From Christiangramia sediminis (GTDB taxonomy: Bacteria; Bacteroidota; Bacteroidia; Flavobacteriales; Flavobacteriaceae): a stretch of 64,000 bases of DNA. Location: positions 62,001 through 126,000 of the forward strand of contig NZ_JAJBZG010000005.1 of assembly GCF_020552705.1 (NCBI RefSeq), in the 5' to 3' direction. Position 1 is the first letter of the stretch. The number at the start of each line of letters is the position of its first letter. The position numbers and the translations under genes are program-made. Below, in pieces: positions 7,773-47,759 of the stretch. The notes beneath the pieces were generated by a model, which was not told the DNA's origin, searched no databases, and was given only the letters and a program-made list of their open reading frames with translations.

Positions 7773-9017
7773 TTAATCAAATTTTCTTTTCGTGAACCAT
7801 TTGTCATTTAAAGAGAGTCCTATAGACAATCTTAGAAAGTTCTCCTGAATTAAACCAGAATCCTTGGTACCTCTTTGTCCAAGCTCGATTCCGAGGTTTG
7901 CATTAGAGAAAAATGTTCCGACTGGTAATCCTAGTCCAAAAGATATGCCAAACTCATTAATAGATTCATCATTGACTATCAATCCAGTTTCATCATATCT
8001 AAATCCAGCCCTGTAAACCACTCTCTCCAGGTAACTTGTAAAAGAATTATAATTAGGTATATAAAATCCTCCTACCGAGAATTCAGAAGCATCTTCATAT
8101 GTACCTCCATCCCCTCTAAATCTAAAGCTATTCTCATAAGAAGAAGAGCCAACATTAGAATATTCAGCTCCGGCAAACCACTTATTCTCTTCTCCAAGAC
8201 CCGCTCCAATAGTTAGTTTAGAAGGAAATTTGAATTGTGTATCTGTCAGATCCAGTTCTCTAAAATCTATTACTCTACCTGTTCCTAAGGAAAAATCTAC
8301 TGTGGAAATAGCTCTTGAGTTCTCAGAATCAAGATCCATTCCCGGTGCATAGGTTCCTGAAACATGTAAATTAAGTTTTTCACTGATCTCCGTTTGATAG
8401 TTAGCTCCAAAATTAAAGCTAAAACCTTTAATATCAGACCTATTTACATCTGTTGTTCCGTATTGAAGTTCCTCACGGTTGATGCTTTGAGAATTTTGAA
8501 AATTTCCGAAGTTATAATTGGCATCCACACCTAAACTCAGTTCATCAGTTATAGAAACACCAGCAGAAATAAAAACCTTATTCATTCCACCTCTACCGTT
8601 CAAAAGACTGGCAGAACCATCGTCCATATCAAGAATACGATACCCTACCGAGGTATAAGGCAGCACTCCAAATCCAATTCCCACTCTATCACTAACAGGA
8701 AATGCCAGCGCCAGGTAGTCAAGAGATGTGATCTTAGCGTTATCACTTGCCTGATCTGATTCAAGTTTTATTCTATCATGACTTGCACCAACCGTAAAAT
8801 TTGTAAGCTTAAGAGTCCCGTAACTGGCAGGATTTTGAATATTCATATGAATGCTATCATTGAATATACTTAAACCACCCATAGACCTATTCTCTACAGT
8901 TCCCTTGAAGTTTGTTAAACCAATACCGTAATAAGAATAAGGTGAGGATACGTTTTCCTGCGCTTGTGCAGTAAAAGCTAAAAATAAAGCTACGATTACT
9001 ATAAATCGTTTTATCAT
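7773..9017 (-). CDS. Outer membrane beta-barrel protein of unknown role
   Basis: A 414-residue protein with a Sec signal (IVIVALFLAFTAQAQ). It is followed by SSPYSYYGIGLTNFKG and by many alternating strands (VGIGFGVLPYTSVGYR, SLGVDANYNFGNF, FSFNFGANY, EFGISFGLGLPVGTFF) typical of a FadL/PorV-sized outer membrane barrel. Substrate is unknown. Its ATG overlaps the coaX stop by 4 bases (ATGA), so the two genes are coupled; the functional reason for pairing it with coenzyme A synthesis is not evident. Confidence 0.82.
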   Translation of the reverse strand: MIKRFIVIVALFLAFTAQAQENVSSPYSYYGIGLTNFKGTVENRSMGGLSIFNDSIHMNIQNPASYGTLKLTNFTVGASHDRIKLESDQASDNAKITSLDYLALAFPVSDRVGIGFGVLPYTSVGYRILDMDDGSASLLNGRGGMNKVFISAGVSITDELSLGVDANYNFGNFQNSQSINREELQYGTTDVNRSDIKGFSFNFGANYQTEISEKLNLHVSGTYAPGMDLDSENSRAISTVDFSLGTGRVIDFRELDLTDTQFKFPSKLTIGAGLGEENKWFAGAEYSNVGSSSYENSFRFRGDGGTYEDASEFSVGGFYIPNYNSFTSYLERVVYRAGFRYDETGLIVNDESINEFGISFGLGLPVGTFFSNANLGIELGQRGTKDSGLIQENFLRLSIGLSLNDKWFTKRKFD

Positions 9018-10780: not shown

Positions 10781-10792
10781 TGATATTCATCA
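10781..10792 (+). promoter_or_regulatory. Weak candidate Crp/Fnr-type site upstream of nhaA
   Basis: TGAT-ATTC-ATCA followed by TTTTA. Like the four sites in the 36-44 kb cluster, its end lies 24 bases before a -7-like box (GAATTTTA, 10816-10823), which matches TAnnTTTG only in A and TTT. nhaA starts at 10868. Support is weaker than for the other sites. Confidence 0.35.
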
Positions 10793-10867
10793 TTTTACAC
10801 ACGGGCTTTAAAGCCGAATTTTAAAGACTGCTTAGATTTTTGCTCAAGCATCCAAAACACCAGAGAC

Positions 10868-12187
10868 ATGAAAAAATCCAACCTAGATGTGTATCTGCTG
10901 TTGCCCATCAAGAATTTTATTGAAAAGCAAACCTCGGTGGGGATAAGCCTTATCATCTCCACGATCCTTGCGCTTGGTATTGCCAATTCTCCTCTGGCTG
11001 GTTACTATCATGAATTCTGGAAACAGGAAATCTATGTGGGACTTAATGAATTTTTAATAAGCAAAAGTCTGTTACACTGGATAAATGACGGCCTTATGTC
11101 CATGTTCTTTTTTCTGATAGGCCTGGAACTAAAAAAAGAAATTTTAAAGGGGGAACTATCAAGTTTAAGAGGAGCTATTTTACCTGTGGCTGCGGCTGTA
11201 GGCGGAATGTTATTTCCGGCATTGATCTATTTTATTTTAAACTCCGGTACCGATTCCATTTCAGGTTGGGGTATCCCAATGGCAACCGATATCGCCTTTG
11301 CACTGGGAATCCTCTATATTCTAAACGATAAAGTTCCGGTTTCACTCAAAATATTCTTAACCGCCATTGCAATTGCTGATGACATGGGGGCGGTACTCGT
11401 GATTGCTTTCTTTTATACCGAACAGATCTCAATCCAAAGTCTGGGCATAGGTATATTCTTTCTTCTTGTTCTAATTGCTGCCAACTTTATAGGCATAAGA
11501 AATACGCTATTTTATGCCGTCATGGGAATTGGCGGACTCTGGCTAGCCATTCTGCTTTCCGGTATTCATGCTACCATTGCTGCGGTTCTGGCGGCATTTG
11601 CAATTCCCACCAGCAAGAGAATAGATACTCCCATCTTTCTTAGGAAGGCTAAATTGCTATCTTTTCATATTAAGAATCAGCTTAAAAAAACGTTTCAAAG
11701 ACCCGAAAAAAAGGAGGAAGAGATTTCCAATACCATTGAGAAATTCTCACTGCTTACCGAGGATGCGACCCCTCCCCTGCAGAGGCTTGAACATGCTTTA
11801 TATCCTTTTGTAAGTTTTGTCGTTTTACCTTTGTTCGCCTTTGCCAATGCGGGCGTAAGCTTTACTAGTGAATCCTTTTCGCTTTTTCTGAAACCCGTGA
11901 GTCTGGGAATTTTTTTAGGATTGATCTTTGGCAAATTCTTCGGAATTGTTTTATTCACCAGACTCATGGTAAGCCTTAAAATATCTAAACTTCCCAAAGG
12001 TGTGAAATGGGATCATATTTACGGTGTAGGTTTACTAGGTGCAATTGGATTTACCATGTCCCTTTTTATAACAGATCTGGCGTTTGATACTGCAACCTAT
12101 ATGAACCAGGCCAAGATTGGTATTTTCTCAGCCTCTCTTCTTGCAGGTATTCTTGGTTATTTTTACCTCAAGCGCATAAACCCATAA
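10868..12187 (+). CDS. nhaA: Na+/H+ antiporter NhaA
   Basis: A 439-residue inner membrane antiporter that exchanges Na+ for protons. The Asp pair of the ion-binding site is visible in AIADDMGAVLVIAFF (Asp171-Asp172), along with MATDIAFALGILYIL and PLFAFANAGVSF, all diagnostic of NhaA. About 12 membrane helices are evident. A charged insert near residues 265-300 (KTFQRPEKKEEE) lengthens the loop relative to the E. coli protein (388 residues), as in many Bacteroidota NhaA. Monocistronic; a marine, salt-exposed habit fits. Confidence 0.96.
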   Translation: MKKSNLDVYLLLPIKNFIEKQTSVGISLIISTILALGIANSPLAGYYHEFWKQEIYVGLNEFLISKSLLHWINDGLMSMFFFLIGLELKKEILKGELSSLRGAILPVAAAVGGMLFPALIYFILNSGTDSISGWGIPMATDIAFALGILYILNDKVPVSLKIFLTAIAIADDMGAVLVIAFFYTEQISIQSLGIGIFFLLVLIAANFIGIRNTLFYAVMGIGGLWLAILLSGIHATIAAVLAAFAIPTSKRIDTPIFLRKAKLLSFHIKNQLKKTFQRPEKKEEEISNTIEKFSLLTEDATPPLQRLEHALYPFVSFVVLPLFAFANAGVSFTSESFSLFLKPVSLGIFLGLIFGKFFGIVLFTRLMVSLKISKLPKGVKWDHIYGVGLLGAIGFTMSLFITDLAFDTATYMNQAKIGIFSASLLAGILGYFYLKRINP

Positions 12188-36022: not shown

Positions 36023-36034
36023 TGATAACGGTCA
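36023..36034 (+). promoter_or_regulatory. Crp/Fnr-type site A, upstream of yceI
   Basis: TGAT-AACG-GTCA, followed by TAATTT. Its end is 24 bases from a -7-like box CACCTTTG (36058-36065); the ATG is at 36090. It shares sequence and spacing with sites at 40115, 41876 and 44364. Confidence 0.65.
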
Positions 36035-36089
36035 TAATTTAATAAGTACTCCTACCCCACCTTTGTACTGATTTTAAAACGCAATTGAT

Positions 36090-36668
36090 ATGAAACTTTA
36101 CAGCTCTTTAAGGATTTTGATCGCAACACTTCTAATAAGTACTGGAATAAATGCTCAATCCTACAAACTAGATAATCAATCTTCCAGTCTTATAGTAGAT
36201 GGAACTTCAAATATCCATGACTGGACCATTGAAGCAGAAAATACCAGCGGGACTATTAATATTGATCTTGATGAAGGAAAAATAGACGACATCGAAAATC
36301 TTGAATTTTCAGTAATAGCCGAAAGTTTAATGAGTGGGAAAAGCGGAATGGATAAAAACACTTACAAAGCTTTAAACACAGATAAATATAAGTCTATTAC
36401 TTACCAGCTTCAAAAAGTAAATAGTATTGAAAATACTTCTGGTAACACTTATAAAGTATCAACTAAAGGAAACCTAACGATCGCAGGAGTAAAAAAAGAG
36501 ATCAACCTCAATTTTAATCTGAAATCAGACAGCAATAAAATTGTTCTCTCCGGCGAACACAAACTCAAAATGACCGATTTCGAAATAGACCCTCCTACAG
36601 CGATGTTTGGCTCCATAAAAACCGGTGATATGGTTAAAATAAAATTTACTACTCAATTTAATAAATAA
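36090..36668 (+). CDS. YceI-family periplasmic protein
   Basis: 192 residues with signal peptide (RILIATLLISTGINAQ) and a YceI lipocalin-like beta-barrel. Family features include LIVDGTSNIHDWTIEAENTSG, a MSGKSGMDKNTYKALNTDKYKSITY middle segment, and GNLTIAGVKKEINLNFNL near the end. YceI proteins bind isoprenoid or amphiphilic molecules and are induced by stress. It leads an apparent operon with the barrel protein 26 bases downstream and has candidate site A in its promoter. Confidence 0.92.
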   Translation: MKLYSSLRILIATLLISTGINAQSYKLDNQSSSLIVDGTSNIHDWTIEAENTSGTINIDLDEGKIDDIENLEFSVIAESLMSGKSGMDKNTYKALNTDKYKSITYQLQKVNSIENTSGNTYKVSTKGNLTIAGVKKEINLNFNLKSDSNKIVLSGEHKLKMTDFEIDPPTAMFGSIKTGDMVKIKFTTQFNK

Positions 36669-36694
36669 AAACTTCAACCTTAATAATTATAGAT

Positions 36695-37966
36695 ATGAAA
36701 ACTATTACTAAATACATCAGTATAATGCTTATCGCACTGATAGCAACCTCTGCAATTGGACAAAATAACCGTGACCTGGACAATTTCCGTGCACGTGACC
36801 AAAGAGGAATCAATGAATTTGAAGCACCAAAAGACAGTGTAACTACCTTTGACGGAGTACACGTTAGAATTGGAGGTGCATCCACAATCCAGTTTCAGGC
36901 ATTAGATCATGAAAATTCAGGCAATGAAGCAACCCCTGTATTGCAGGAAATAGGTGATAACTTCAACCTTGCTACTGCCAACCTGGACCTTGATGTGGTA
37001 CTTTACAGTGGTGTTCGTATGCATCTTAGAACTTATCTTTCTTCTCAGCACCATACCGAAACCTATGTAAAAGGCGGGTATATCCAGATAGATAAACTGG
37101 ATTTTATAAGCCAGGGTTTTGCTGAAGATCTTATGGATCACCTTAGAGTGAAAATTGGACATATGGAAAATAACTACGGGGACGCTCACTTTAGAAGAAC
37201 CGACAATGCGATGTCGCTTTATAATCCTTTCATCGGTAATTACTTGATGGACAGTTTCACTACAGAAGTAGGTGCAGAAGTTTACTACTTCAATAATGGA
37301 TGGCTTGGAATGTTGGGACTTACAAACGGAAAACTAAATCAGGCAGTGACCAATCCTGAAACTACCAGCCCTTCCCTTTTGGCTAAATTGGGATACGATA
37401 ATTATCTTACAGAAGATTTAAGATTTAGATTAACAGGATCACTTTACCATACCAACCAGACCGGAAGTGCTTATTTGTATAGTGGAGACCGTGCAGGATC
37501 CAGATACTACAATGTTTTTACCGATATTGACGGCAACGGAGATACTTTTAGAGCAGGTAGAATAAACCCTAACCTTAGAAATGAAATGACTTCTATCATG
37601 ATCAACCCATTCCTAAAATATGGTGGACTTGAATTCTTCGGAATCTATGAAAGAGCGCAGGGAAAAGCTGCTTCAGAAACTGACGAAAGAACCTGGAATC
37701 ACTATGCAGGTGAGCTTATCTACAGATTTGGTGGTGATGACGATCTTTATTTAGGAGGACGATACAGTGTTGCTGATGGAGAACTTCAAGGAGGCGCAGA
37801 TGTAAGCGTAAACAGATTTCAACTTGGAGCGGGATGGTTTATGACTAGAAACATTCTAATGAAGTTAGAATATGTTAACCAAAAATATAATGACTATCCT
37901 GTAACCGATATTCATAATGACGGGAAGTTTAATGGATTGATGGTTGAAGCAGCCATTAGCTTCTAA
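36695..37966 (+). CDS. Outer membrane porin-like barrel protein
   Basis: 423 residues with signal peptide (ISIMLIALIATSAIGQ). After a polar stretch come repeated amphipathic strands (VHVRIGGASTIQFQAL, VVLYSGVRMHLRTYLSS, VKGGYIQIDKLDF, LRFRLTGSLYHT) ending in GLMVEAAISF with a C-terminal Phe, as in porins. Substrate not known. Located between two YceI genes, so it may be an outer membrane partner for their ligand. This link is inference. Confidence 0.8.
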   Translation: MKTITKYISIMLIALIATSAIGQNNRDLDNFRARDQRGINEFEAPKDSVTTFDGVHVRIGGASTIQFQALDHENSGNEATPVLQEIGDNFNLATANLDLDVVLYSGVRMHLRTYLSSQHHTETYVKGGYIQIDKLDFISQGFAEDLMDHLRVKIGHMENNYGDAHFRRTDNAMSLYNPFIGNYLMDSFTTEVGAEVYYFNNGWLGMLGLTNGKLNQAVTNPETTSPSLLAKLGYDNYLTEDLRFRLTGSLYHTNQTGSAYLYSGDRAGSRYYNVFTDIDGNGDTFRAGRINPNLRNEMTSIMINPFLKYGGLEFFGIYERAQGKAASETDERTWNHYAGELIYRFGGDDDLYLGGRYSVADGELQGGADVSVNRFQLGAGWFMTRNILMKLEYVNQKYNDYPVTDIHNDGKFNGLMVEAAISF

Positions 37967-37979
37967 TATTTGGATTGCT

Positions 37980-38016
37980 TTTCGGGTAGAATTCTGTAAT
38001 GGTGTTCTACCCGAAA
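37980..38016 (+). terminator. Intercistronic hairpin after the porin-like gene
   Basis: An 11-bp stem TTCGGGTAGAA / TTCTACCCGAA (37981-37991, 38005-38015). No T-run follows, so it could stabilise the upstream transcript or cause partial termination. Confidence 0.5.
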
Positions 38017-38044
38017 TTATTTATAAGAATCTCAATTCTATATC

Positions 38045-38611
38045 ATGAAAAATCTTTTAATGTGCATAGGAAGTTTTCTTTTTTGCATTTGTGTGAACGC
38101 ACAAAGGGATTTTGAAAAAGGAAGTATAAAAATTCTACCAAGCAGTGAACTCATTATTGCAGGAAGTACTAACGTAAATAAGTTTGACTGCAAGTTTGAT
38201 ATCCAGCTAATAAGTAAACCAAAAAGTTTTGTATATTTTAAAGATGAGGAATATCTCAGGTTCAAAGATCTTGAACTTCATCTTCGCACTGAGGGTTTTG
38301 ATTGTGGGAATCAAAGGATGAACTCTGATTTTCAGGATTTGCTTATGAATGATAAGTATCCTGAAATTGTGATCCATATAGATCATGTGGAGCTGGTTTC
38401 TAAAGAGTATGCCAAAGCCTATATTGAGGTAGATCTCGCCGGAAAGAGTAATAAATATGATTTACCTGTGCTACTTACGGAAGATCGCTTTAAAGGAAAA
38501 TTTAAAATGAATATTCGTGATTTTGGATTGAAACCACCTAAAAAAGCACTGGGTCTTATAGAGGTAGATGAAATCATCGAAGTCCAGTTCGATCTTCAGG
38601 TCGCTCATTAG
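38045..38611 (+). CDS. Second YceI-like periplasmic protein
   Basis: 188 residues with signal peptide (LLMCIGSFLFCICVNA). YceI-like features: LIIAGSTNVNKFDCKFD, FDCGNQRMNSDFQDLLMNDKYPEIVIHI, and the final FKMNIRDFGLKPPKKALGLIEVDEIIEV. It is more divergent than the first copy. It precedes the acyl-CoA hydrolase/transferase gene by 51 bases. Confidence 0.85.
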   Translation: MKNLLMCIGSFLFCICVNAQRDFEKGSIKILPSSELIIAGSTNVNKFDCKFDIQLISKPKSFVYFKDEEYLRFKDLELHLRTEGFDCGNQRMNSDFQDLLMNDKYPEIVIHIDHVELVSKEYAKAYIEVDLAGKSNKYDLPVLLTEDRFKGKFKMNIRDFGLKPPKKALGLIEVDEIIEVQFDLQVAH

Positions 38612-38662
38612 AGACTGCTATAAAGATCTGAGATATTTATAATTCAGTATTAAAATAATTAT

Positions 38663-39940
38663 ATGAAAAGTTTAAAAATTGTTTCCGCCCAGGAAGCGGT
38701 GAAAGAGGTAAAATCTAATCAAAGAGTTTTTTTGCAGGGTGCTGCAATGACTCCTAATGTATTGATAGATGCCCTTTGTGAAAGATATGAGGATCTTAAA
38801 AATGTAGAGATCATCCAGATACATACCGAAGGAAAGGCATTATATACAGAACCACCCTATCAGGATTCTTTTAAAACAAACAGTTGCTTTGTAGGCGGGA
38901 ATGTTAGAAAAGCAGTAAACTCTAATTTTGGAGCATATATTCCCATTTTTCTAAGTGAGATCCATGTGCTATTCCGTAGAAATATACTTCCGCTGGATTT
39001 CGCATTTATCCAGGTTTCTCCGCCAGATAAACATGGGTACTGTTCTTTAGGAGTTTCAGTAGACATCACTTTACCGGCTATTCAAAATGCAAAAAAAGTG
39101 ATTGCACAAATTAATCCCCACGTTCCCCGGACGCACGGTGACGGGATTATTCATATAAGCCAGTTTGATGCAGCCATAGAAGTAGACCAGCCCATACATT
39201 CTGCTCACTTATCTGAACCTACAGATATTGAGAAACAAATAGGGAAGCATGTTGCGGAACTTATTGAAGATGGTGCTACCCTGCAAATGGGTATTGGTGG
39301 TATTCCGAATGTTGTACTCAATAATCTTACGAATCATAAAAGATTAGGAATTCATACCGAAATGTTCTCTGATGGCATTTTGCCGCTTATTGAAAAAGGT
39401 ATTATCACCGGTGAAGAAAAGGCGGTAAAGACCGGAAAACTGGTTACCTGCTTTGCAGTAGGCTCTCCAAAACTGTATGATTTTGTAGATGACAATCCCC
39501 TGGTACATTTTAAAGAAGCGGCCTACACCAATGACACCGCGATCATTAGAAAAAATCCAAAAGTAACTGCGATCAATTCAGCCATTGAAATTGATCTTAC
39601 CGGCCAGGTTTGTGCCGATACTATTGGCAAGATTCAGTATTCCGGTGTTGGTGGCCAAATGGATTTTATACGCGGTGCTGCACTTTCTGAAGGAGGAAAA
39701 GCGATCATAGCCTTACCTTCAGTAACTAAAAATGGAATTTCCAAGATTGTTCCTTACTTAAAAGAAGGAGCCGGCGTAACCACTACCCGTGCTCATGTGC
39801 ACTATATAGCCACCGAATATGGTGTGGTCAATCTTTTTGGAAAAAACCTCAAGCAACGTGCTGAAGCTTTAATTTCAATTTCACATCCAGACCACAGGGA
39901 AGAACTTTCTAGACAGGCGTTTGAAAGATTAAACGCATAA
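38663..39940 (+). CDS. Acetyl-CoA hydrolase/4-hydroxybutyrate CoA-transferase family enzyme
   Basis: 425 residues of the CoA-transferase family I fold with two halves. The family Glu nucleophile lies in GIHTEMFSDGILPLIEKG. Other motifs are LQMGIGGIPNVVLNNL, FIQVSPPDKHGYCSLGVSVD, and GVGGQMDFIRGAALSEGGKAIIALPS. Such enzymes move CoA between acetyl-CoA and other acids or hydrolyse acetyl-CoA. Which acid is used cannot be told. In its setting beside a hemoglobin and USP genes it suits acetate formation under oxygen limitation (inference). Confidence 0.9.
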   Translation: MKSLKIVSAQEAVKEVKSNQRVFLQGAAMTPNVLIDALCERYEDLKNVEIIQIHTEGKALYTEPPYQDSFKTNSCFVGGNVRKAVNSNFGAYIPIFLSEIHVLFRRNILPLDFAFIQVSPPDKHGYCSLGVSVDITLPAIQNAKKVIAQINPHVPRTHGDGIIHISQFDAAIEVDQPIHSAHLSEPTDIEKQIGKHVAELIEDGATLQMGIGGIPNVVLNNLTNHKRLGIHTEMFSDGILPLIEKGIITGEEKAVKTGKLVTCFAVGSPKLYDFVDDNPLVHFKEAAYTNDTAIIRKNPKVTAINSAIEIDLTGQVCADTIGKIQYSGVGGQMDFIRGAALSEGGKAIIALPSVTKNGISKIVPYLKEGAGVTTTRAHVHYIATEYGVVNLFGKNLKQRAEALISISHPDHREELSRQAFERLNA

Positions 39941-39964
39941 TTTTCGAATTGTTTTAACGAGCGA

Positions 39965-40018
39965 GGTTAAGTGCAGCGCAGCAGTCTCTACAAAGAGACA
40001 GCTGCGCTGCACTTCGTT
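39965..40018. repeat. Long palindrome (REP-like or terminator hairpin)
   Basis: AAGTGCAGCGCAGC (39969-39982) pairs perfectly with GCTGCGCTGCACTT (40001-40014). An A-A mismatch and a further 6-bp GTCTCT/AGAGAC stem close on an ACAA loop. It is far more GC-rich than its surroundings. No T-run follows, so it may be a repeat of the REP/BIME kind rather than a plain terminator. Confidence 0.7.
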
Positions 40019-40114
40019 TAGCTCATACTGGCCTATTTATGCCTTCATATCTGCCTGAATAACATTCAACTGTCAAATTTTAAATTTTCATGAATTAATA
40101 TAGTTTGCGTTTCC

Positions 40115-40126
40115 TGACTCCTGTCA
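40115..40126 (+). promoter_or_regulatory. Crp/Fnr-type site B, upstream of the hemoglobin operon
   Basis: TGAC-TCCT-GTCA followed by TATTTT. The end is 24 bases before a -7-like box TAGTTTTA (40150-40157, 7 of 8 with TAnnTTTG if the final G is relaxed). The first gene starts at 40183. Confidence 0.7.
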
Positions 40127-40182
40127 TATTTTAAAAGTACTCTGGTTCATAGTTTTACATAACAAATCAAATATTAGAAATT

Positions 40183-40464
40183 ATGACTTTTTATCAGAAA
40201 CAACTTTCAGAATTTACCCGGGATTTTTACGCAGGAGCCACTACAGGTATTATTGTTTCAAGCTGTCTAGGCTCTATCGCAGCCATGCTGGTACTCATGA
40301 ATGGACATGCTATTGGAGAGATGATACAGCTTGGCGTAATCGTGGTAGCCTGTATGTGGTATAATGCCTCGGTACTGGCACAATTAAAATCCAAATTTGT
40401 CTTCAATTCTCTTATTATTAGCATTCTTATAAGCACTATTTTTATTCTTATCAATATATTATAG
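40183..40464 (+). CDS. Small membrane protein coupled to the truncated hemoglobin gene
   Basis: 93 residues with about three membrane segments (TTGIIVSSCLGSIAAMLVLM, IQLGVIVVACMWYNASVLAQL, LIISILISTIFILINIL). No known family is recognised. Its stop is 3 bases from the ATG of the truncated hemoglobin, which makes co-expression and possibly joint function likely. Site B lies in its promoter. Confidence 0.78.
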   Translation: MTFYQKQLSEFTRDFYAGATTGIIVSSCLGSIAAMLVLMNGHAIGEMIQLGVIVVACMWYNASVLAQLKSKFVFNSLIISILISTIFILINIL

Positions 40465-40467
40465 CCT

Positions 40468-40860
40468 ATGAAAGAAGATTTAAAAGAACGTGCAGATATC
40501 AATAAACTGGTAGTGAATTTTTATAGCAAAGTCCGTAAGAATGAGGAGATAGGTTACTTTTTCAATAATACCATTCACAACTGGGATGATCATTTGGAAA
40601 AGATCACCGATTTTTGGGAAAGTAACCTCTTCTTTACAGGTAGTTTTAGTGGAAATCCTGCCATAGCACATGTAAAAGTGGATAGAACTCACCATAATTC
40701 TATTACTGAATATCACTTTGGGATCTGGCTTAACCTTTGGTTTCAAACCATTGATGAGTTGTTTGAAGGAGAAATGGCTCAACGCCTAAAAAATAATGCC
40801 CGTAAAATGTCAACTCATCTCTTTCTAAGGATCTATCAGGGCAGACAGGCAAATAAATAA
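40468..40860 (+). CDS. Group III truncated hemoglobin
   Basis: 130 residues of the 2-over-2 globin fold. The proximal haem His sits in ITEYHFGIWLNLWFQTIDELF, and DFWESNLFFTGSFSGNPAIAHVKV matches the group III (trHbP) pattern. Group III globins are linked to microaerobic metabolism and oxygen or NO binding; the role here is unproven. Forms an operon with the membrane gene before it. Confidence 0.92.
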   Translation: MKEDLKERADINKLVVNFYSKVRKNEEIGYFFNNTIHNWDDHLEKITDFWESNLFFTGSFSGNPAIAHVKVDRTHHNSITEYHFGIWLNLWFQTIDELFEGEMAQRLKNNARKMSTHLFLRIYQGRQANK

Positions 40861-41052
40861 ATCTGCCGTTTTCCAATACTAAATTGTTTCCAGTTGTAGA
40901 TAAACTGATCGTTCCATTTTTCTAAACTCTTCCTATATTTTTTTCTTCTGGTGTGGTCTCTTTGCAGCAGTTTGTTTTCTCTCACTTAGAAAAACTGAAG
41001 AAAAATCATTTGACACAAGCTCGTAATTTAACTAAAGTTTTCATATAAAAAA

Positions 41053-41820
41053 TTATCCGTGATATACGAAGATGGGAATCTCGATATTCATATTGGCAGA
41101 GAAACCATATTCTGTATGTAAAAGCCGGTCACAGAGACTCAGGTTCTTTCCTATCACAAAAATGATATCATATTGATTTTGAATATCTTTAAAAAGAGAC
41201 CTGGTAAAAGGAATGGGAGTTGTTAAAGGAGTTTCATCAGTATATAAATGAGGGTATTCCACATCGCCATCTTTTACCTCTACAAATGTAAAGTCTGAAG
41301 AATTTAAATAATTAAGGTTTTTGAGTATTTGTCTTTGCTCCTCCATAGATAATATTGAATGATCTACTGGAAATACGGCTTTTCGGGGAGTTTTATAATC
41401 GCATTTACCGGGTACGGCAATGATATTGCATTTTATTTTTCGAACCACCTCGTAGGCATGATCGCCCAGGATGGGATGTGTATGTTCATTCTGGCTAACT
41501 GCACCAATAAAGATAAGGTCTATCTTCTTTTCCTGCAGTGCTTTTCTTACGGCACTAATAAGGTTTTCTGAAGAAAGTATAGTGTGAAATTTATGTGATT
41601 TATTTCCGGCGTATTTCTTTAGTTCTTTTGCTTTCTTTTGGAGTTCACTTAAGGTAATTATCAACTCATTTTCCAGAACATCACTTGCAGATCTGTTAAA
41701 ATTGAAGCTATGTATATTCAATAAATAGAAATTTACGTCTGTTGTTTTCAAGAAATCAACAGCATATCTGCCTGCGTTATCGGAAGTTTCTGAAAAATCG
41801 GTCAGAATTAAAACATTCAT
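41053..41820 (-). CDS. Universal stress protein, degenerate ATP site
   Basis: 255 residues. A USP domain occupies about residues 1-145 (MNVLILTDFSETSDNAGRYAVDFL), ending in IDLIFIGAVSQNEHTHPILGDHAYEVVRKIKCNIIAVPG, where the GxxGx9GS nucleotide motif is altered. A weaker second USP-like half follows (KAVFPVDHS..). Probably a non-ATP-binding USP. It has its own promoter with site C. Confidence 0.82.
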   Translation of the reverse strand: MNVLILTDFSETSDNAGRYAVDFLKTTDVNFYLLNIHSFNFNRSASDVLENELIITLSELQKKAKELKKYAGNKSHKFHTILSSENLISAVRKALQEKKIDLIFIGAVSQNEHTHPILGDHAYEVVRKIKCNIIAVPGKCDYKTPRKAVFPVDHSILSMEEQRQILKNLNYLNSSDFTFVEVKDGDVEYPHLYTDETPLTTPIPFTRSLFKDIQNQYDIIFVIGKNLSLCDRLLHTEYGFSANMNIEIPIFVYHG

Positions 41821-41844
41821 GGAAAATCACTTAATACATTACAG

Positions 41845-41887
41845 CGAAATTAGGTGAAGTCTCCACTAGAAAAAATGATGGAAATCA
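41845..41887 (-). promoter_or_regulatory. Crp/Fnr-type site C and -7 box of the USP gene
   Basis: On the minus strand, TGAT-TTCC-ATCA (41876-41887) is followed after 23 bases by TAATTTCG (41852-41845), one mismatch from TAnnTTTG. The USP start is at 41820. Same spacing as sites A, B and D. Confidence 0.7.
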
Positions 41888-41914
41888 GTTCTTCGTATTT
41901 AATTGAATTTCTTT

Positions 41915-42955
41915 TTATTTAATATTTTTCAGTGCCTCTGAATCCAGTAATTTGATATTTCGGCCTTCGATCTCAATAAGTCCATCCTTTTTAAATTCAG
42001 ACAGGGTCCTTATAAGACTTTCCGGGGCCATTCCAGCTACACCAGCAAGATCTGCACGTGAAATCCTGATACTTTTTAGAGGATGTTTTTTGATCCTTTC
42101 AGCGAAAAGTAAAATAGTATTGGCCGTTTTCTTTTTTACAGAACCATAGGCCATATCCATCAATTGTTGTTTAAGTTCTGAAAGATTATTACTTAATACC
42201 TCTACAAGCTGCATGGTGAGCTTAGGGTTTGTTGAGAGAATATTATAAAATTCTTCACGGGAAACCGCGTAAAGCTGAGTGTCCTCCATAGCAGTCGCAT
42301 AATCTTCAAAGGAACCTTGAGAATTATTGGTATGATTTCCGAAAAAATCATCTTCCTTATATAGCTCGGTGATCAATTCCTTTCCCTGATTATCCATTCT
42401 ATGGGCTTTTACCACCCCCCTTTTGACGAGATAAAAGAAATTTGCGTGCTTTCCTTTTTCATAGATGGCCTCCCCTTTTTTAAAAAACTGCAATTCTTCC
42501 TGACTAAAAACTTCTTTCAGGTCTTCAATACTGCTTAGCTTTTCCTCTTTTTGTGGTGCAACCTGTTCCCGGTGAGAATTAAGGATTTCCACTTTGGCCA
42601 GTCGGCTTTCAATTGCGCTTAAAAGCTCTTCTTCTTCGAAGGGTTTGGTTAGATAATCATCGGCACCAAGATCCATTCCTTTACGAATATCCTTATGTTC
42701 CGTCTTTGCAGAAAGAAAAATAAACGGAATATTTCGTGTGTCAGGATCTTTACTCAATGCATCTAAAACGCCATACCCGTCTATCTCTGGCATCATAATA
42801 TCGCAAACTATAATATCGGGATGGGTTTGCTTTGCTTTTTCAATTCCATGTCTGCCGTTGGAGGCAGTTATTACATCATAATTAGATAGCTCTAGTAATT
42901 CTGCGGTGTTTTCTCTAACAGTAACATCATCTTCAATAAGCAGTAATTTCTTCAT
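41915..42955 (-). CDS. Response regulator fused to a Crp/Fnr DNA-binding module
   Basis: 346 residues. An intact receiver (about 1-120) has LLLIEDDVTVR, the phospho-Asp in IIVCDIMMPEIDGYG, and KPF. A cyclic-nucleotide-binding-like sensor follows (about 150-265) and then a Crp-type helix-turn-helix (about 280-346, SRADLAGVAGMAPESLIRTLSEFKKDGLIEIEG). The recognition helix keeps the Glu and Arg (E-x-x-x-R) that contact the TGA core in Crp/Fnr proteins. It follows the PAS kinase by 11 bases, so the two are a likely pair. It is the best candidate for binding TGAY-N4-RTCA sites. Confidence 0.92.
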   Translation of the reverse strand: MKKLLLIEDDVTVRENTAELLELSNYDVITASNGRHGIEKAKQTHPDIIVCDIMMPEIDGYGVLDALSKDPDTRNIPFIFLSAKTEHKDIRKGMDLGADDYLTKPFEEEELLSAIESRLAKVEILNSHREQVAPQKEEKLSSIEDLKEVFSQEELQFFKKGEAIYEKGKHANFFYLVKRGVVKAHRMDNQGKELITELYKEDDFFGNHTNNSQGSFEDYATAMEDTQLYAVSREEFYNILSTNPKLTMQLVEVLSNNLSELKQQLMDMAYGSVKKKTANTILLFAERIKKHPLKSIRISRADLAGVAGMAPESLIRTLSEFKKDGLIEIEGRNIKLLDSEALKNIK

Positions 42956-42966
42956 TATTCTTTTCT

Positions 42967-44217
42967 TTAGGATTTTTTCAGCGGAACTTTAATGGTAAAT
43001 TCGGTGCCTTCATTCTCTTTACTTTCAAATGAAATAGTTCCACCAAGATTTTCTAAATGTGTCCGGGCAATATTTAGGCCTATTCCTGTTCCCTGGTCCA
43101 GCAAAGCATTCTCAGCCCTGAAATACCTTTCAAAAATATGCTTTTGGTCTTTTTGAGGAATTCCCCTGCCCTGGTCCTCTATTTTAAAGACAATAAATTC
43201 GTTCTCAAAATCAATTTTAAAATTTATTAAAGTGTCTTCTGGAGAATATTTTATCGCATTTCCCAGTAAATTGGAAAGTATAAGTTCCAGGATCTTTTCA
43301 TCCATATAAAGTTGAACATCCTCTATTTCTTTAGGATAAATTATTTCCTGACCGTCCTTTAAGGTGACATTTGCATTATAAACCACTTCATTGATCAACC
43401 TTTTCAGGCTGAAATTTGAAAACTTATACTGCCCTCTGCCACTATCCAGCCTTTCAATTGAAAGAAAATCATTCAGGATATTATTAAGATAATGCACCTT
43501 ATTCCTAATAGTCACCAGGTGCTTCTCTCTTTTTTCCTGCTGCTCTTCCCTGGTGTATTTTTCAGCAAGTGTCGCTGAAGTAAGAATACCGCTTAAAGGA
43601 GTTTTAAATTCATGCGAAACAAGAGAGAGAAATTTGGTTTTCAATTCGTTCAGCTCTTTTTCCTTTTGAAGTGCATCTTTTATTTTCTTTTCAGCTTGCT
43701 TCCTGCGTCTTATTTCGTCTTCCAGGTCCAGATTCAGCTTTTGAAGTTCTTCCACACTGTCACTCAATTCCTGCGTTCGCACTTTAATTTTATCTTCCAG
43801 CCGGGCATTAAGTTCTTTGATCTGCTTCTGAGTCTCCTTTCTAACGGTGATATCTATCACAAGAGACATCACATAATCATTCCCATCCAGACTGAACGGA
43901 TTAAGACCGGCTTCCACTGGAAACAATGTACCGTTTTTCTTTACACCATGCAGGTCCCGACCATGTCCCATTTGCCTCTTCTCACTCTTATCAAGAAATT
44001 TATTGAAATGATTATGATGCTTATGGTGGTATTCTTTAGGAATAAGCATATCGAGATGCTGATTGATAATTTCCCCTTCTTCATAGCCAAACATTTCCTG
44101 GGCGGCCTTATTGGCAGCGACCACTATTTGTTTTGAATTTACCACAATAATACCTTCAGAAGCTGCCTGAAATAGAAGGTTGAAAACATTTTTGTTATCT
44201 ATAAAGTTGTCCTGCAA
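42967..44217 (-). CDS. Cytosolic PAS-domain histidine kinase
   Basis: 416 residues with no membrane helix. A PAS domain covers about residues 10-130 (GIIVVNSKQIVVAANKAAQEMFGYEEGE), followed by a long coiled coil (about 135-195). The kinase has an intact HisKA (SLVSHEFKTPLSGIL), an N-box (LLGNAIKYSPED), DQGRGIP and GTGIGLNIAR. It therefore should autophosphorylate and pass the phosphate to the receiver-Crp protein. A PAS sensor of redox or gas would fit, but no haem or Fe-S ligand is identified. It is read divergently from the USP gene and shares site D. Confidence 0.92.
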   Translation of the reverse strand: MQDNFIDNKNVFNLLFQAASEGIIVVNSKQIVVAANKAAQEMFGYEEGEIINQHLDMLIPKEYHHKHHNHFNKFLDKSEKRQMGHGRDLHGVKKNGTLFPVEAGLNPFSLDGNDYVMSLVIDITVRKETQKQIKELNARLEDKIKVRTQELSDSVEELQKLNLDLEDEIRRRKQAEKKIKDALQKEKELNELKTKFLSLVSHEFKTPLSGILTSATLAEKYTREEQQEKREKHLVTIRNKVHYLNNILNDFLSIERLDSGRGQYKFSNFSLKRLINEVVYNANVTLKDGQEIIYPKEIEDVQLYMDEKILELILSNLLGNAIKYSPEDTLINFKIDFENEFIVFKIEDQGRGIPQKDQKHIFERYFRAENALLDQGTGIGLNIARTHLENLGGTISFESKENEGTEFTIKVPLKKS

Positions 44218-44332
44218 ATTAAATCTCTTTTAAAATACTAAAGGTAAAATCTTTTTTTCAAATCACCTTATAAATAAGCCCACATCCAAAACTGGTTTCT
44301 GCAGAAGATATTTATAAAATCACGAATTACCT

Positions 44333-44340
44333 AAAATCTA
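44333..44340 (-). promoter_or_regulatory. Candidate -7 box of the kinase/regulator operon
   Basis: Minus-strand TAGATTTT, 7 of 8 with TAnnTTTG, lying 24 bases beyond site D on the opposite side from the USP promoter. If used, site D drives both divergent operons. Confidence 0.45.
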
Positions 44341-44363
44341 TTTTCGCAATATTCTAAATATAC

Positions 44364-44406
44364 TGACTATCGTCATATTTCTTAGTTCCATAAATCAGGA
44401 TATTTG
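44364..44406 (+). promoter_or_regulatory. Crp/Fnr-type site D and -7 box of the two-domain USP gene
   Basis: TGAC-TATC-GTCA (44364-44375), then 23 bases, then GATATTTG (44399-44406), one mismatch from TAnnTTTG. The USP start is at 44424. Confidence 0.7.
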
Positions 44407-44423: not shown

Positions 44424-45257
44424 ATGAAAACTATTTTAGTTCCTGTAGATTTTTCAGAACATTCTGAATATGCCCTTGAAGTGGCCGCCAGTATTGCCAA
44501 GAAAAAGGATGCCGAGATTATAGTGATGCATATGATGGGGCTTGCAGATTCGTTTCTTACCAAAGATGAAAAGCAAGAAGTTTTCAATGCTATCTACTTT
44601 ATGAAACTCACCAAACAACGATTTGATAAATTACTTGACAAAGATTACCTGAAAGGAATTGATGTTTCTCAGGTCGTAAAAACCCATAAAGATTTTACAG
44701 AAATAAATGAGATCATAGATGAATATGGAGCCGATCTTATTGTGATGGGTTCAAATGGTGTTGCCGGTGTTAAAGAGGTTTTTGTAGGCTCAAACACCGA
44801 AAAAGTAGTACGCTATTCAGAAATACCCGTTTTGGTTATAAAGGATAGAACTCCTGCATTTAATATTAAGAAGGCTGTTTTTGTAACCGATTTTCAATTA
44901 GAAACTCTTGATTCATTTATCAGAGCAAGAGAATTCTTTAAAATATTTGATGTGCGACCCCAGGTACTGTTTATCAATATTCCTGAAAAATTCATGAGCA
45001 CCCGGGAAATGGAATTAAAGGCCTATAATTTCCTGGTAGATGCAGGATTGGATAACAGTAAATTTAAAGATGAAATTCATTTTTATGATGACTATACCGC
45101 TGAAAAAGGAATTTTTAATTATTGTGCTAAATCCAAGGTAGATGTGGTAGCGATCTCTACTCACGGACGCACAGGCCTGGGACATTTCTTCCTGGGAAGT
45201 ATGGGAGAGGATATTGCCAATCACGCCAATATTCCTGTGATCACTTTTAAAATATAA
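44424..45257 (+). CDS. Two-domain universal stress protein
   Basis: 277 residues made of two USP domains. The first ends in VMGSNGVAGVKEVFVGSNTEKVVRYSEIPVLVIKD and the second in STHGRTGLGHFFLGSMGEDIANHANIPVITFKI. Both keep the GxxGx9G(S/T) ATP-binding motif, unlike the other USP in this cluster. Divergent from the PAS kinase, with site D between them. Confidence 0.92.
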   Translation: MKTILVPVDFSEHSEYALEVAASIAKKKDAEIIVMHMMGLADSFLTKDEKQEVFNAIYFMKLTKQRFDKLLDKDYLKGIDVSQVVKTHKDFTEINEIIDEYGADLIVMGSNGVAGVKEVFVGSNTEKVVRYSEIPVLVIKDRTPAFNIKKAVFVTDFQLETLDSFIRAREFFKIFDVRPQVLFINIPEKFMSTREMELKAYNFLVDAGLDNSKFKDEIHFYDDYTAEKGIFNYCAKSKVDVVAISTHGRTGLGHFFLGSMGEDIANHANIPVITFKI

Positions 45258-46407: not shown

Positions 46408-47106
46408 TCAATCCAAATTGAGAGCTATCTCTACCATTTCTCCCAACTTTTTTTCACGCATTTCAGCTGAAATTTCCTCTCCATTTACCAAAGAATCTGA
46501 AATGGTAAGTATAGACAAGGCATTAACTCCAAATTTCGCCGCGAGTGTATAGATTCCGGCGGTTTCCATTTCGGCACACAGCACTCCGTGAGCAGCCCAT
46601 TTCTTATAATAATCGGGATCATCATCGTAAAATATATCTGAAGATAAAACATTACCAGCTTTAAAATCTATGCCTTTTTCTTTCGCATAATCAACAGCTT
46701 TTAACAGGAGATCAAAACTTGCGGTAGGAGCAAAATCTGCATCCTTAAAGGTAATCCTGTTCAAACCTGAATTAGTAGATGCAGACATGGCAATAACTAT
46801 ATCCAGCAATCTGAGATCTGGCTGAAATGCGCCGGCACTTCCAACCCGTATAAGGTTTTTAACCTGGTAATCTTTAATAAGTTCATGGCAATAGATCATC
46901 GCTGAAGGAATTCCCATTCCCGTTCCCTGGACTGAGATTCTTCTACCATTATAAGTCCCGGTATATCCCAGCATTCCCCGAATTTTATTATAGCACACTG
47001 TATTTTCGAGGAAAGTTTCTGCAATCCATTTGGCGCGCAATGGATCTCCCGGAAGCAGAACTGTTTCCGCTATGTCTCCTTTTTTAGCTTCAATATGCAA
47101 ACTCAT
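46408..47106 (-). CDS. deoD: Purine-nucleoside phosphorylase, DeoD type
   Basis: 232 residues, the usual length of the hexameric DeoD family. [33 protein letters not shown] gives the phosphate-binding region, [17 protein letters not shown] and VGSAGAF the active-site loops, and [15 protein letters not shown] the ribose-binding Glu and SDSL motif. Cleaves purine (deoxy)ribonucleosides. Eleven bases after deoC, with which it channels deoxyribose 1-phosphate to central metabolism (a phosphopentomutase is also needed and not seen here). Confidence 0.96.
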
Positions 47107-47117
47107 CTGCTGTGTTT

Positions 47118-47759
47118 TTATGAAATGATTTTTATTCCTGAAGAAGTTCCAATACGCTTTACTCCCAAACTAATATACTCCCTCGCTGTTTCAGCATCTC
47201 TGATTCCTCCAGAAGCTTTTATTTTCACTTTATCACCTACAACCCCTTTCATGATCTTCACATCCTTAAGACTTGCTCCACGACTACCAAAGCCAGTGGA
47301 TGTTTTAACAAAGTCGGCTCCGGCATTCATAACAATTTCACTTGCGATACCAATTTCCTTATCGGTGAGATAACAGGTTTCAATGATGACCTTCAGAATT
47401 TTACTACCAATCGCTTTTTTTATGCTTTCGATTTCAGACCCCACAAACTCATATTTTTCATCTTTAAAAAAACCTAAGTTCATTACCATATCTATTTCAT
47501 CTGCACCATCCAAAATCGCAGTTTCTGCTTCAGTAATTTTAGATTTAGTAGAACTGGCTCCTAAAGGAAAACCAATGGTCGCTGCAATTAAAACAGCTGA
47601 ATCATCAAGGTATTTCCTGGCTATTTTAAGGTTACCACTATTAACGCAAACTGCATAAAATTTATATTGTTTTGCTTCAGCACAGAGGTTTTCTATCTCC
47701 TTCTGGGTGGCATTAGCTGCCAGTAGCGTTTGGTCTATATAGCTAGCAAGATCTTCCAT
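47118..47759 (-). CDS. deoC: Deoxyribose-phosphate aldolase
   Basis: 213 residues, a class I aldolase. The Schiff-base Lys is in [15 protein letters not shown] and the second Lys in [29 protein letters not shown] is also family-typical. Splits deoxyribose 5-phosphate into glyceraldehyde 3-phosphate and acetaldehyde. Its ATG directly abuts the stop of the upstream DUF4403-like gene, so one transcript is likely. Confidence 0.95.

Follow-up and report, generated by a model that had tools for sequence, protein, structure and literature searches.

A 64,000-nucleotide stretch of the Christiangramia sediminis genome (contig NZ_JAJBZG010000005.1, positions 62,001 to 126,000; here called the window) encodes a regulator in which a receiver domain is fused to a Crp-type DNA-binding half (a receiver-Crp, here the 41915 protein). 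Near it lie genes for a histidine kinase, two universal stress proteins (USPs), a truncated hemoglobin, and YceI-like proteins. Four palindromes of the form TGAY-N4-RTCA precede the yceI, hemoglobin, and USP genes, each at one fixed distance from a promoter box resembling TAnnTTTG, the -7 box of the Bacteroidota (Table 1).

Palindromes and -7 boxes in the window

An earlier, sequence-only reading of the window had placed and oriented the four palindromes correctly and had claimed that they share an identical spacing to the box. This was confirmed: the spacer is 23 bases in all four cases, and the box starts at the 24th base past the palindrome. A T and then an A/T-rich run directly follow every palindrome, also as described. 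The boxes CACCTTTG, TAGTTTTA, TAATTTCG, and GATATTTG each carry five of the six fixed bases of TAnnTTTG, and none of the four is perfect. In all nine listed relatives' loci, L046 to L054, a palindrome occupies the position of the 41876 site just past the receiver-Crp gene.

Table 1. Sites, boxes, and genes in the window, numbered from its first base
Feature	Position	Strand	Basis
Palindrome TGATAACGGTCA, ahead of yceI	36023..36034	+	sequence; matrix score 20.4 bits
-7 box CACCTTTG, 23 bases beyond palindrome	36058..36065	+	box scoring
Palindrome TGACTCCTGTCA, ahead of membrane protein/hemoglobin pair	40115..40126	+	exact composite match; 22.5 bits
-7 box TAGTTTTA	40150..40157	+	box scoring
Palindrome TGATTTCCATCA, ahead of 255-amino-acid USP gene	41876..41887	-	sequence; 22.1 bits
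-7 box TAATTTCG	41845..41852	-	box scoring
Palindrome TGACTATCGTCA, between USP and kinase genes	44364..44375	+	sequence; 20.9 bits
-7 box GATATTTG, facing USP gene	44399..44406	+	box scoring
TAGATTTT, weak, same spacing, facing kinase	44333..44340	-	one-mismatch match L143; 13.1 bits
Palindrome TGATATTCATCA, ahead of nhaA (gene 10868-12187)	10781..10792	+	23.4 bits; NhaA by family match
Box GAATTTTA of nhaA site	10816-10823	+	4/6 fixed bases
YceI-like protein, first gene past site	36090..36668	+	Pfam
Possible yceI operon: 423-amino-acid protein, second YceI, acetyl-CoA hydrolase/transferase family	36695-39940		spacing
Hydrophobic protein (93 amino acids), first gene past site	40183..40464	+	no Pfam or NCBIfam match
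Group III truncated hemoglobin	40468..40860	+	PDB 2ig3
USP (255 amino acids), first gene past site	41053..41820	-	Pfam Usp
Receiver-Crp fusion regulator, 346 amino acids: REC, cNMP-binding-like fold, Crp HTH	41915..42955	-	Pfam
Histidine kinase with FixL-like PAS, candidate heme oxygen sensor	42967..44217	-	Pfam, PDB matches
USP (277 amino acids), first gene past site	44424..45257	+	Pfam Usp

The palindrome alone was rejected as evidence because it is too common. The window holds 10 copies versus 4.6 expected, a number reached in 1 of 100 shuffles, and the organism's own 3.25-megabase (Mb) genome holds 211 versus 137 for the pattern read backward. The composite TGAYNNNNRTCAT-N22-TANNTTT gave 14 exact matches in the whole genome versus none in the reversed control, and 42 versus 8 when up to one mismatch was allowed. 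The pairing of motif and spacing is therefore more frequent than chance would give, the point on which the sequence-only reading had staked its proposal. Thirteen of the exact matches are intergenic and lie ahead of a gene; the other is within an open frame. Among the 16 of 28 one-mismatch matches that were inspected, eight were intergenic with a gene downstream, one was intergenic without, and seven fell in open frames.

For an independent ranking, we used a scoring matrix of 420 distinct sites from 80 loci of relatives, the organism's own genome being excluded. The four sites (20.4 to 22.5 bits) and the nhaA site took the top five places in the window, followed by reverse readings of two of those sites (15.7 and 13.1 bits) and then by a score of 9.2. 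The best scores of 100 Markov-shuffled windows had a mean of 8.0 and did not exceed 21.3. The nhaA copy had been called weaker; its matrix score is instead the highest in the window, though its box has only four of the six fixed bases.

The 44364 site can also be read backward, toward the kinase gene, with a box at the right spacing but a low score. Autoregulation of the kinase through this reading is possible. A kinase-facing box at the 23-base spacing was not found in locus L046, and a site precedes a kinase-like gene in 4 of the 80 loci. As for the downstream genes, PDB entry 2ig3 was the sole PDB match of the truncated hemoglobin at E 0.01 (E 5.7e-13), and that protein had no Pfam or NCBIfam match; the 423-amino-acid protein of the possible yceI operon had no Pfam match. 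A long GC-rich, terminator-like inverted repeat (39971-40012) follows the CoA-transferase gene.

Conservation of the spacing and the predicted regulon

A search with the regulator found 563 relatives, of which the best 80 were kept as named loci; their intergenic parts were defined by our own simple open-frame caller. These intergenic parts contain 427 copies of TGAY-N4-RTCA, versus 6 to 17 for each other gap from 0 to 14, and in the coding parts the gap of 4 is unremarkable (100 versus 34 to 125). When 529 gene-facing sites were stacked with their boxes left unaligned, a second information peak appeared at exactly 23 bases. At least five of the six box bases are present at offset 23 on one side of 373 of 423 usable intergenic palindromes, whereas other offsets from 10 to 44 give 4 to 18. 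Every one of the 80 loci has at least one site with a box at 23, so the promoter conservation on which the sequence-only reading depended is present. The gene start lies a median of 23 bases past the box (middle half 19 to 27; 381 pairs). The spacing is also rigid in 120 whole genomes, one per genus, where a spacer of 23 gave 1466 composite matches, 24 gave 138, and 22 gave 137, with 53 in the reversed control for 23.

A receiver-Crp tree of 58 of the 96 collected proteins, rooted at the midpoint, placed the window protein, with good support, in a group of 15 rows with proteins of Gramella/Christiangramia, Gillisia, Salinimicrobium, Psychroflexus, and Mesohalobacter. The rest of the family forms a group of 41 rows that includes a paralogue from the same genome. 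Since most receiver-Crps group with the paralogue, strict orthology does not hold for most of the 80 loci; the tree rejects that view of them, and they are homologues of the window gene. The window clade was therefore also counted alone. Its 11 loci hold 33 intergenic palindromes versus 0 to 5 for other gaps, and a box at 23 accompanies 29 of the 33, in all 11 loci, with no other offset exceeding 3. A further pair of receiver-Crps (G007b and G031b, from loci L037 and L038 of genomes G007 and G031) branches deeply and belongs to neither of the two main groups.

The palindrome with its spacing is almost certainly not a product of chance, and the sequence data argue as strongly for a real activator site. 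That A/T-rich promoter palindromes merely happen to precede -7 boxes is a negligible prospect, for although the palindrome by itself is common, the spacing, gap, reversed, and shuffled controls and the matrix ranking all contradict it.

CRP and FNR have their class II position at -41.5, and the T-rich run past each palindrome sits where a -33 element would be. In the available part of a start-mapping study of Flavobacterium psychrophilum, the TAnnTTTG box occupies -12 to -5 (PMC9723704). With a 23-base spacer, the palindrome would then span -47 to -36 and be centered at -41.5, a figure that joins the constant spacer to a box position taken from a different species. The four sites are most likely FNR/FixK-type sites for class II activation, and the proposal of Crp/Fnr-type sites at class II spacing, made from the window alone, agrees with the constancy of the spacer in relatives and with this predicted position.

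Exact sites in the organism's genome precede the hemoglobin pair, the RIC iron-sulfur repair gene, a cytochrome c gene immediately ahead of nosZ, a thioredoxin-like gene, the CcoS gene that adjoins ccoNO and ccoP, five USP genes, and genes for HSP20, a 138-amino-acid protein, and an MlaE permease. One-mismatch sites precede yceI, both USP genes of the window, nhaA, HemN, and a copper-type P-ATPase resembling CcoI. Across the 80 loci, the linked cluster represented by the window-type USP accounts for 164 of the 381 site-gene pairs, in 78 loci. Smaller target clusters, of which one member each was scanned, include S30AE (18 loci), HSP20, CcoS, copper-type ATPase, and thioredoxin proteins; several others had no Pfam match. 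Judged by gene position, the predicted target set resembles a regulon for low-oxygen respiration and survival. The suggestion that oxygen limitation is involved fits the cbb3 oxidase, HemN, nitrous oxide reductase, and hemoglobin genes found past sites. The notion that the window cluster is itself the regulon holds insofar as a regulon is predicted, but this extends further: 12 of the 13 intergenic exact sites lie outside the window, those at cbb3 and nos genes included.

Two neighboring observations concern possible further members. In L046, a gene of the S30AE type, associated with ribosome hibernation, lies directly past a site (7986-8282) and links the regulon to dormancy. In the window, phosphorylase-superfamily and deoC-like genes stand side by side (46408-47759); 2 of the 80 loci have a deoC-like gene downstream of a site.

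The receiver-Crp protein and the adjoining kinase

The 41915 protein passes the Crp/Fnr cutoffs of Pfam (PF00027, 57.8 bits; PF13545, 50.4 bits), and its closest named relatives are from Christiangramia lutea (84% identity) and Gramella species (82%). It has the acidic pair, phosphoryl Asp, Ser/Thr, and Lys of a response regulator. Receiver residues D9, D10, D52, S82, and K104, as well as Glu312 and Arg316 of the recognition helix in its helix-turn-helix (HTH) domain, are kept in 80 of 80 homologues. Its Crp half (residues 135 to 346) contains no cysteine; among the 80 homologues, 43 have none in this half, 32 have one, and 5 have two. The structure model of the fusion is uncertain between domains (predicted template modeling [pTM] score, 0.40), and the 50 PDB matches listed align over 122 to 219 columns, that is, one half of the fusion each.

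The kinase encoded beside it supplies what the first account lacked, since its FixL-like PAS domain is a likely oxygen sensor. A kinase match lies directly upstream of the receiver-Crp gene in 79 of the 80 loci. In comparison with the PDB, the PAS domain had FixL as its top match and DosP as the next by sequence; FixL also led the matches by fold. In FixL, the proximal His and an Arg located 20 residues further along have established roles in the heme PAS domain, and PAS residues His67 and Arg87 of the window kinase align with them. The His is kept in 72 of 76 kinases and the Arg in 62 of 77, while the two residues flanking the His vary; both are kept in all 11 window-clade kinases. A second FixL-like PAS domain was not found in the genome at E 1e-6. 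The kinase gene has an apparent TTG start, the first in-frame ATG being inside the PAS domain.

With a PAS domain resembling the heme PAS of FixL in the adjoining kinase, the system can be read as FixL signaling to a receiver-FNR/FixK-like fusion. In this model, the PAS domain probably binds heme, and a fall in oxygen would release the kinase to phosphorylate the neighboring receiver and so switch the receiver-Crp. The signal would thus go directly to a receiver of the FixJ type that is joined to a DNA-binding half of the FixK/FNR type. The activator, most likely the 41915 protein, its paralogue, or both, would sit as a dimer at -41.5 in place of the -33 element and aid RNA polymerase holding the Bacteroidota -7 box. 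Taken together, class II sites of the FNR/FixK type, a receiver-Crp activator, and a FixL-like kinase form a reading that we consider quite probable, and activation at low oxygen is a highly probable component of it.

Alternative regulators and signals

Several findings weigh against this reading. A smaller excess at offset 23 also occurs in controls (23 of 100 coding palindromes and 16 of 114 with other gaps), which may reflect genuine sites that lie in wrongly called frames or differ at a single base. The His is missing at its column in 5 of 77 PAS domains, and the PAS model, otherwise good, is poorly determined at the heme helix (residues 67 to 86, predicted local distance difference test score [pLDDT] below 50). 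The remaining points concern the identity of the regulator.

The genome encodes six proteins with a cyclic nucleotide monophosphate (cNMP)-binding fold. Only the 41915 protein and its 47%-identical paralogue have a full Crp HTH with an E-S-L-I-R helix; a 194-amino-acid protein with the related PESLSR may be a further candidate user of the sites. The paralogue (G000:C3:602353-603399; L031 9354-10400) has its own cluster of sites with USP and HSP20 genes. A pairing of the paralogue with a kinase of its own was rejected, as the 20-kb stretch containing it yielded no window-kinase homologue.

That the four sites belong to the paralogue, or equally to both proteins, is possible but less likely than not. 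The paralogue shares the identical recognition sequence ESLIRTLS and sits among sites and USP genes. Moreover, most family receiver-Crps group with it and away from the 41915 protein, so the broad conservation may derive from its lineage and the family-wide counts speak for receiver-Crps generally more than for the 41915 protein. The grammar is, however, equally strong in the clade of the 41915 protein, and the kinase homologue is missing near the paralogue. The palindrome centers also differ. G or C occurs at center positions 7-8 in 17 of 29 sites of the window clade versus 37 of 363 elsewhere (Fisher 3e-9) and in 14 of 24 versus 28 of 104 distinct 12-mers (0.007), these positions being a post hoc choice made after the window-clade sites had been viewed. 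In the organism's own genome, the count is 0 of 7 around the paralogue versus 10 of 11 elsewhere, including the four window sites and nhaA, with reverse readings, one broken palindrome, and one site without a gene left out. This post hoc split suggests the 41915 protein as the regulator at the sites of the window, of the cbb3 genes, and of most of the nos region, with the paralogue acting on its own cluster. The sites are in all likelihood bound by a receiver-Crp in this genome, and probably by the 41915 protein in particular; the tree lowers the latter estimate and the center-base difference raises it, and it was left unchanged. The original assignment of the sites to the 41915 protein is supported in part: the grammar holds in its clade (29 of 33 palindromes), but that it is the only regulator is not fully supported, given a paralogue with the same helix.

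The signal may also be other than oxygen. Nitric oxide or redox state, acting through the same heme PAS or another partner, would suit the RIC, nosZ, and hemoglobin genes among the predicted targets, and heme PAS domains can bind nitric oxide (PDB 1dp8 title). The cbb3 oxidase and HemN nevertheless fit oxygen limitation, and F. psychrophilum raises cbb3 and heme synthesis at low oxygen, according to the available part of PMC9723704. We regard this alternative as unlikely and consider an oxygen signal received through heme probable.

A less likely account still is that a general FNR-like iron-sulfur regulator owns the grammar and that the adjoining receiver-Crp is incidental. Receiver-Crps were called at E 1e-40 and other relatives of the Crp half at E 1e-8 in the 120 genomes. 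The 48 genomes with only another Crp/Fnr relative still carry 420 sites (median 8; 2.56 per Mb). CxxC-bearing FNR-like proteins close to the receiver-Crp in two relatives (G110 and G061) also have E-S-A-I-R helices. Sites are twice as dense in the 54 genomes with a receiver-Crp (1011 sites; median 16; 5.34 per Mb), although this group comparison ignores phylogeny. In the organism's own genome, only the two receiver-Crps of the six cNMP-fold proteins match the Crp half at E 1e-8. The 18 genomes with neither regulator have 35 sites (median 0), 27 of them in G048, an 82%-complete genome in which no Crp/Fnr relative was found at E 1e-8. In ten genomes, a single receiver-Crp is the sole relative at E 1e-8, and these have 127 sites versus 2 reversed; a receiver-Crp can thus account for the grammar alone but is not its sole user. 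Of these ten, only G114 is itself named in the tree, where it falls on the paralogue's side. Outside the family, among order or class members in a phylum draw, a receiver-Crp does not raise the counts (median 2 with, n = 27; 2 without, n = 16). Sole ownership of the motif by receiver-Crps was accordingly rejected at the family level by the 48 genomes and is unsupported beyond it. In the phylum draw, 46 of 296 genomes had a receiver-Crp match at E 1e-40, three of which cover the receiver only.

Two related observations were made. A gene for a CxxC FNR-like protein lies close downstream of the receiver-Crp gene in L039 (11475-12152) and L042 (7907-8584), where operators may be shared. Genome G387, from a distant family of the phylum, has 24 composite sites and no receiver-Crp at E 1e-40.

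The favored reading, in which a FixL-like kinase signals to a receiver-Crp, can be set beside three known systems. FNR has TGAY..RTCA half-sites, a class II position, cbb3 and hemN targets, a Glu and an Arg in its recognition helix, and cysteine ligands for an iron-sulfur cluster. The window system resembles it in all but the last, its class II position and targets being predicted ones: without a cysteine in the Crp half there is no FNR-type cluster, and input comes through a receiver domain. FixJ has a LuxR-type output domain, whereas the output of the 41915 protein is a Crp HTH with no LuxR-type domain. The rhizobial FixL-FixJ-FixK2 cascade is otherwise alike in the FixL heme PAS, to which the PAS domain of the window kinase is closest, in cbb3 and denitrification targets, and in the FixK2 box, TTG(A/C)-N6-(T/G)CAA in the available part of PMC9104804, to which the window palindrome is near. 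Because receiver and Crp-type activator are one protein here, the induction of fixK2 by FixJ has no counterpart. Further differences are that the window kinase is far under the NCBIfam FixL cutoff (NF041777; 103.4 versus 850 bits), that the predicted targets add USPs and hemoglobin, and that the sigma factor is another. The NmpRSTU system of Myxococcus xanthus likewise places cbb3 and hemN promoters under a heme kinase pathway but, as far as the accessible text of PMC11841059 describes it, has a globin-coupled sensor, a phosphorelay, and an NtrC-like regulator; USPs are named 12 times in that paper. A literature search of titles and abstract openings, in which most subscription journals were not covered, found neither a receiver-Crp in Bacteroidota nor this promoter spacing among the entries listed.

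We lean slightly toward the broader view that, in much of the Flavobacteriaceae, the response to oxygen limitation is a collapsed FixL-FixJ-FixK cascade, in which a heme-PAS kinase would phosphorylate a receiver joined directly to an FNR-like activator. This fusion would stand in for an iron-sulfur FNR in some lineages, that of the window included, and would use a class II grammar rigid to one base for the Bacteroidota sigma factor, with USPs as core targets. In the window lineage, the regulator would be present twice, with operator centers that have begun to diverge. Such a rule for activated transcription could be tested genome-wide in a phylum whose sigma factor is unusual and would allow low-oxygen regulons to be predicted in many unstudied genomes. 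The findings also identify a probable oxygen sensor and a probable regulator for the respiration, denitrification, and stress genes of a large bacterial family, and they suggest a route by which the three-step rhizobial cascade may be shortened, namely, the fusion of two of its proteins.

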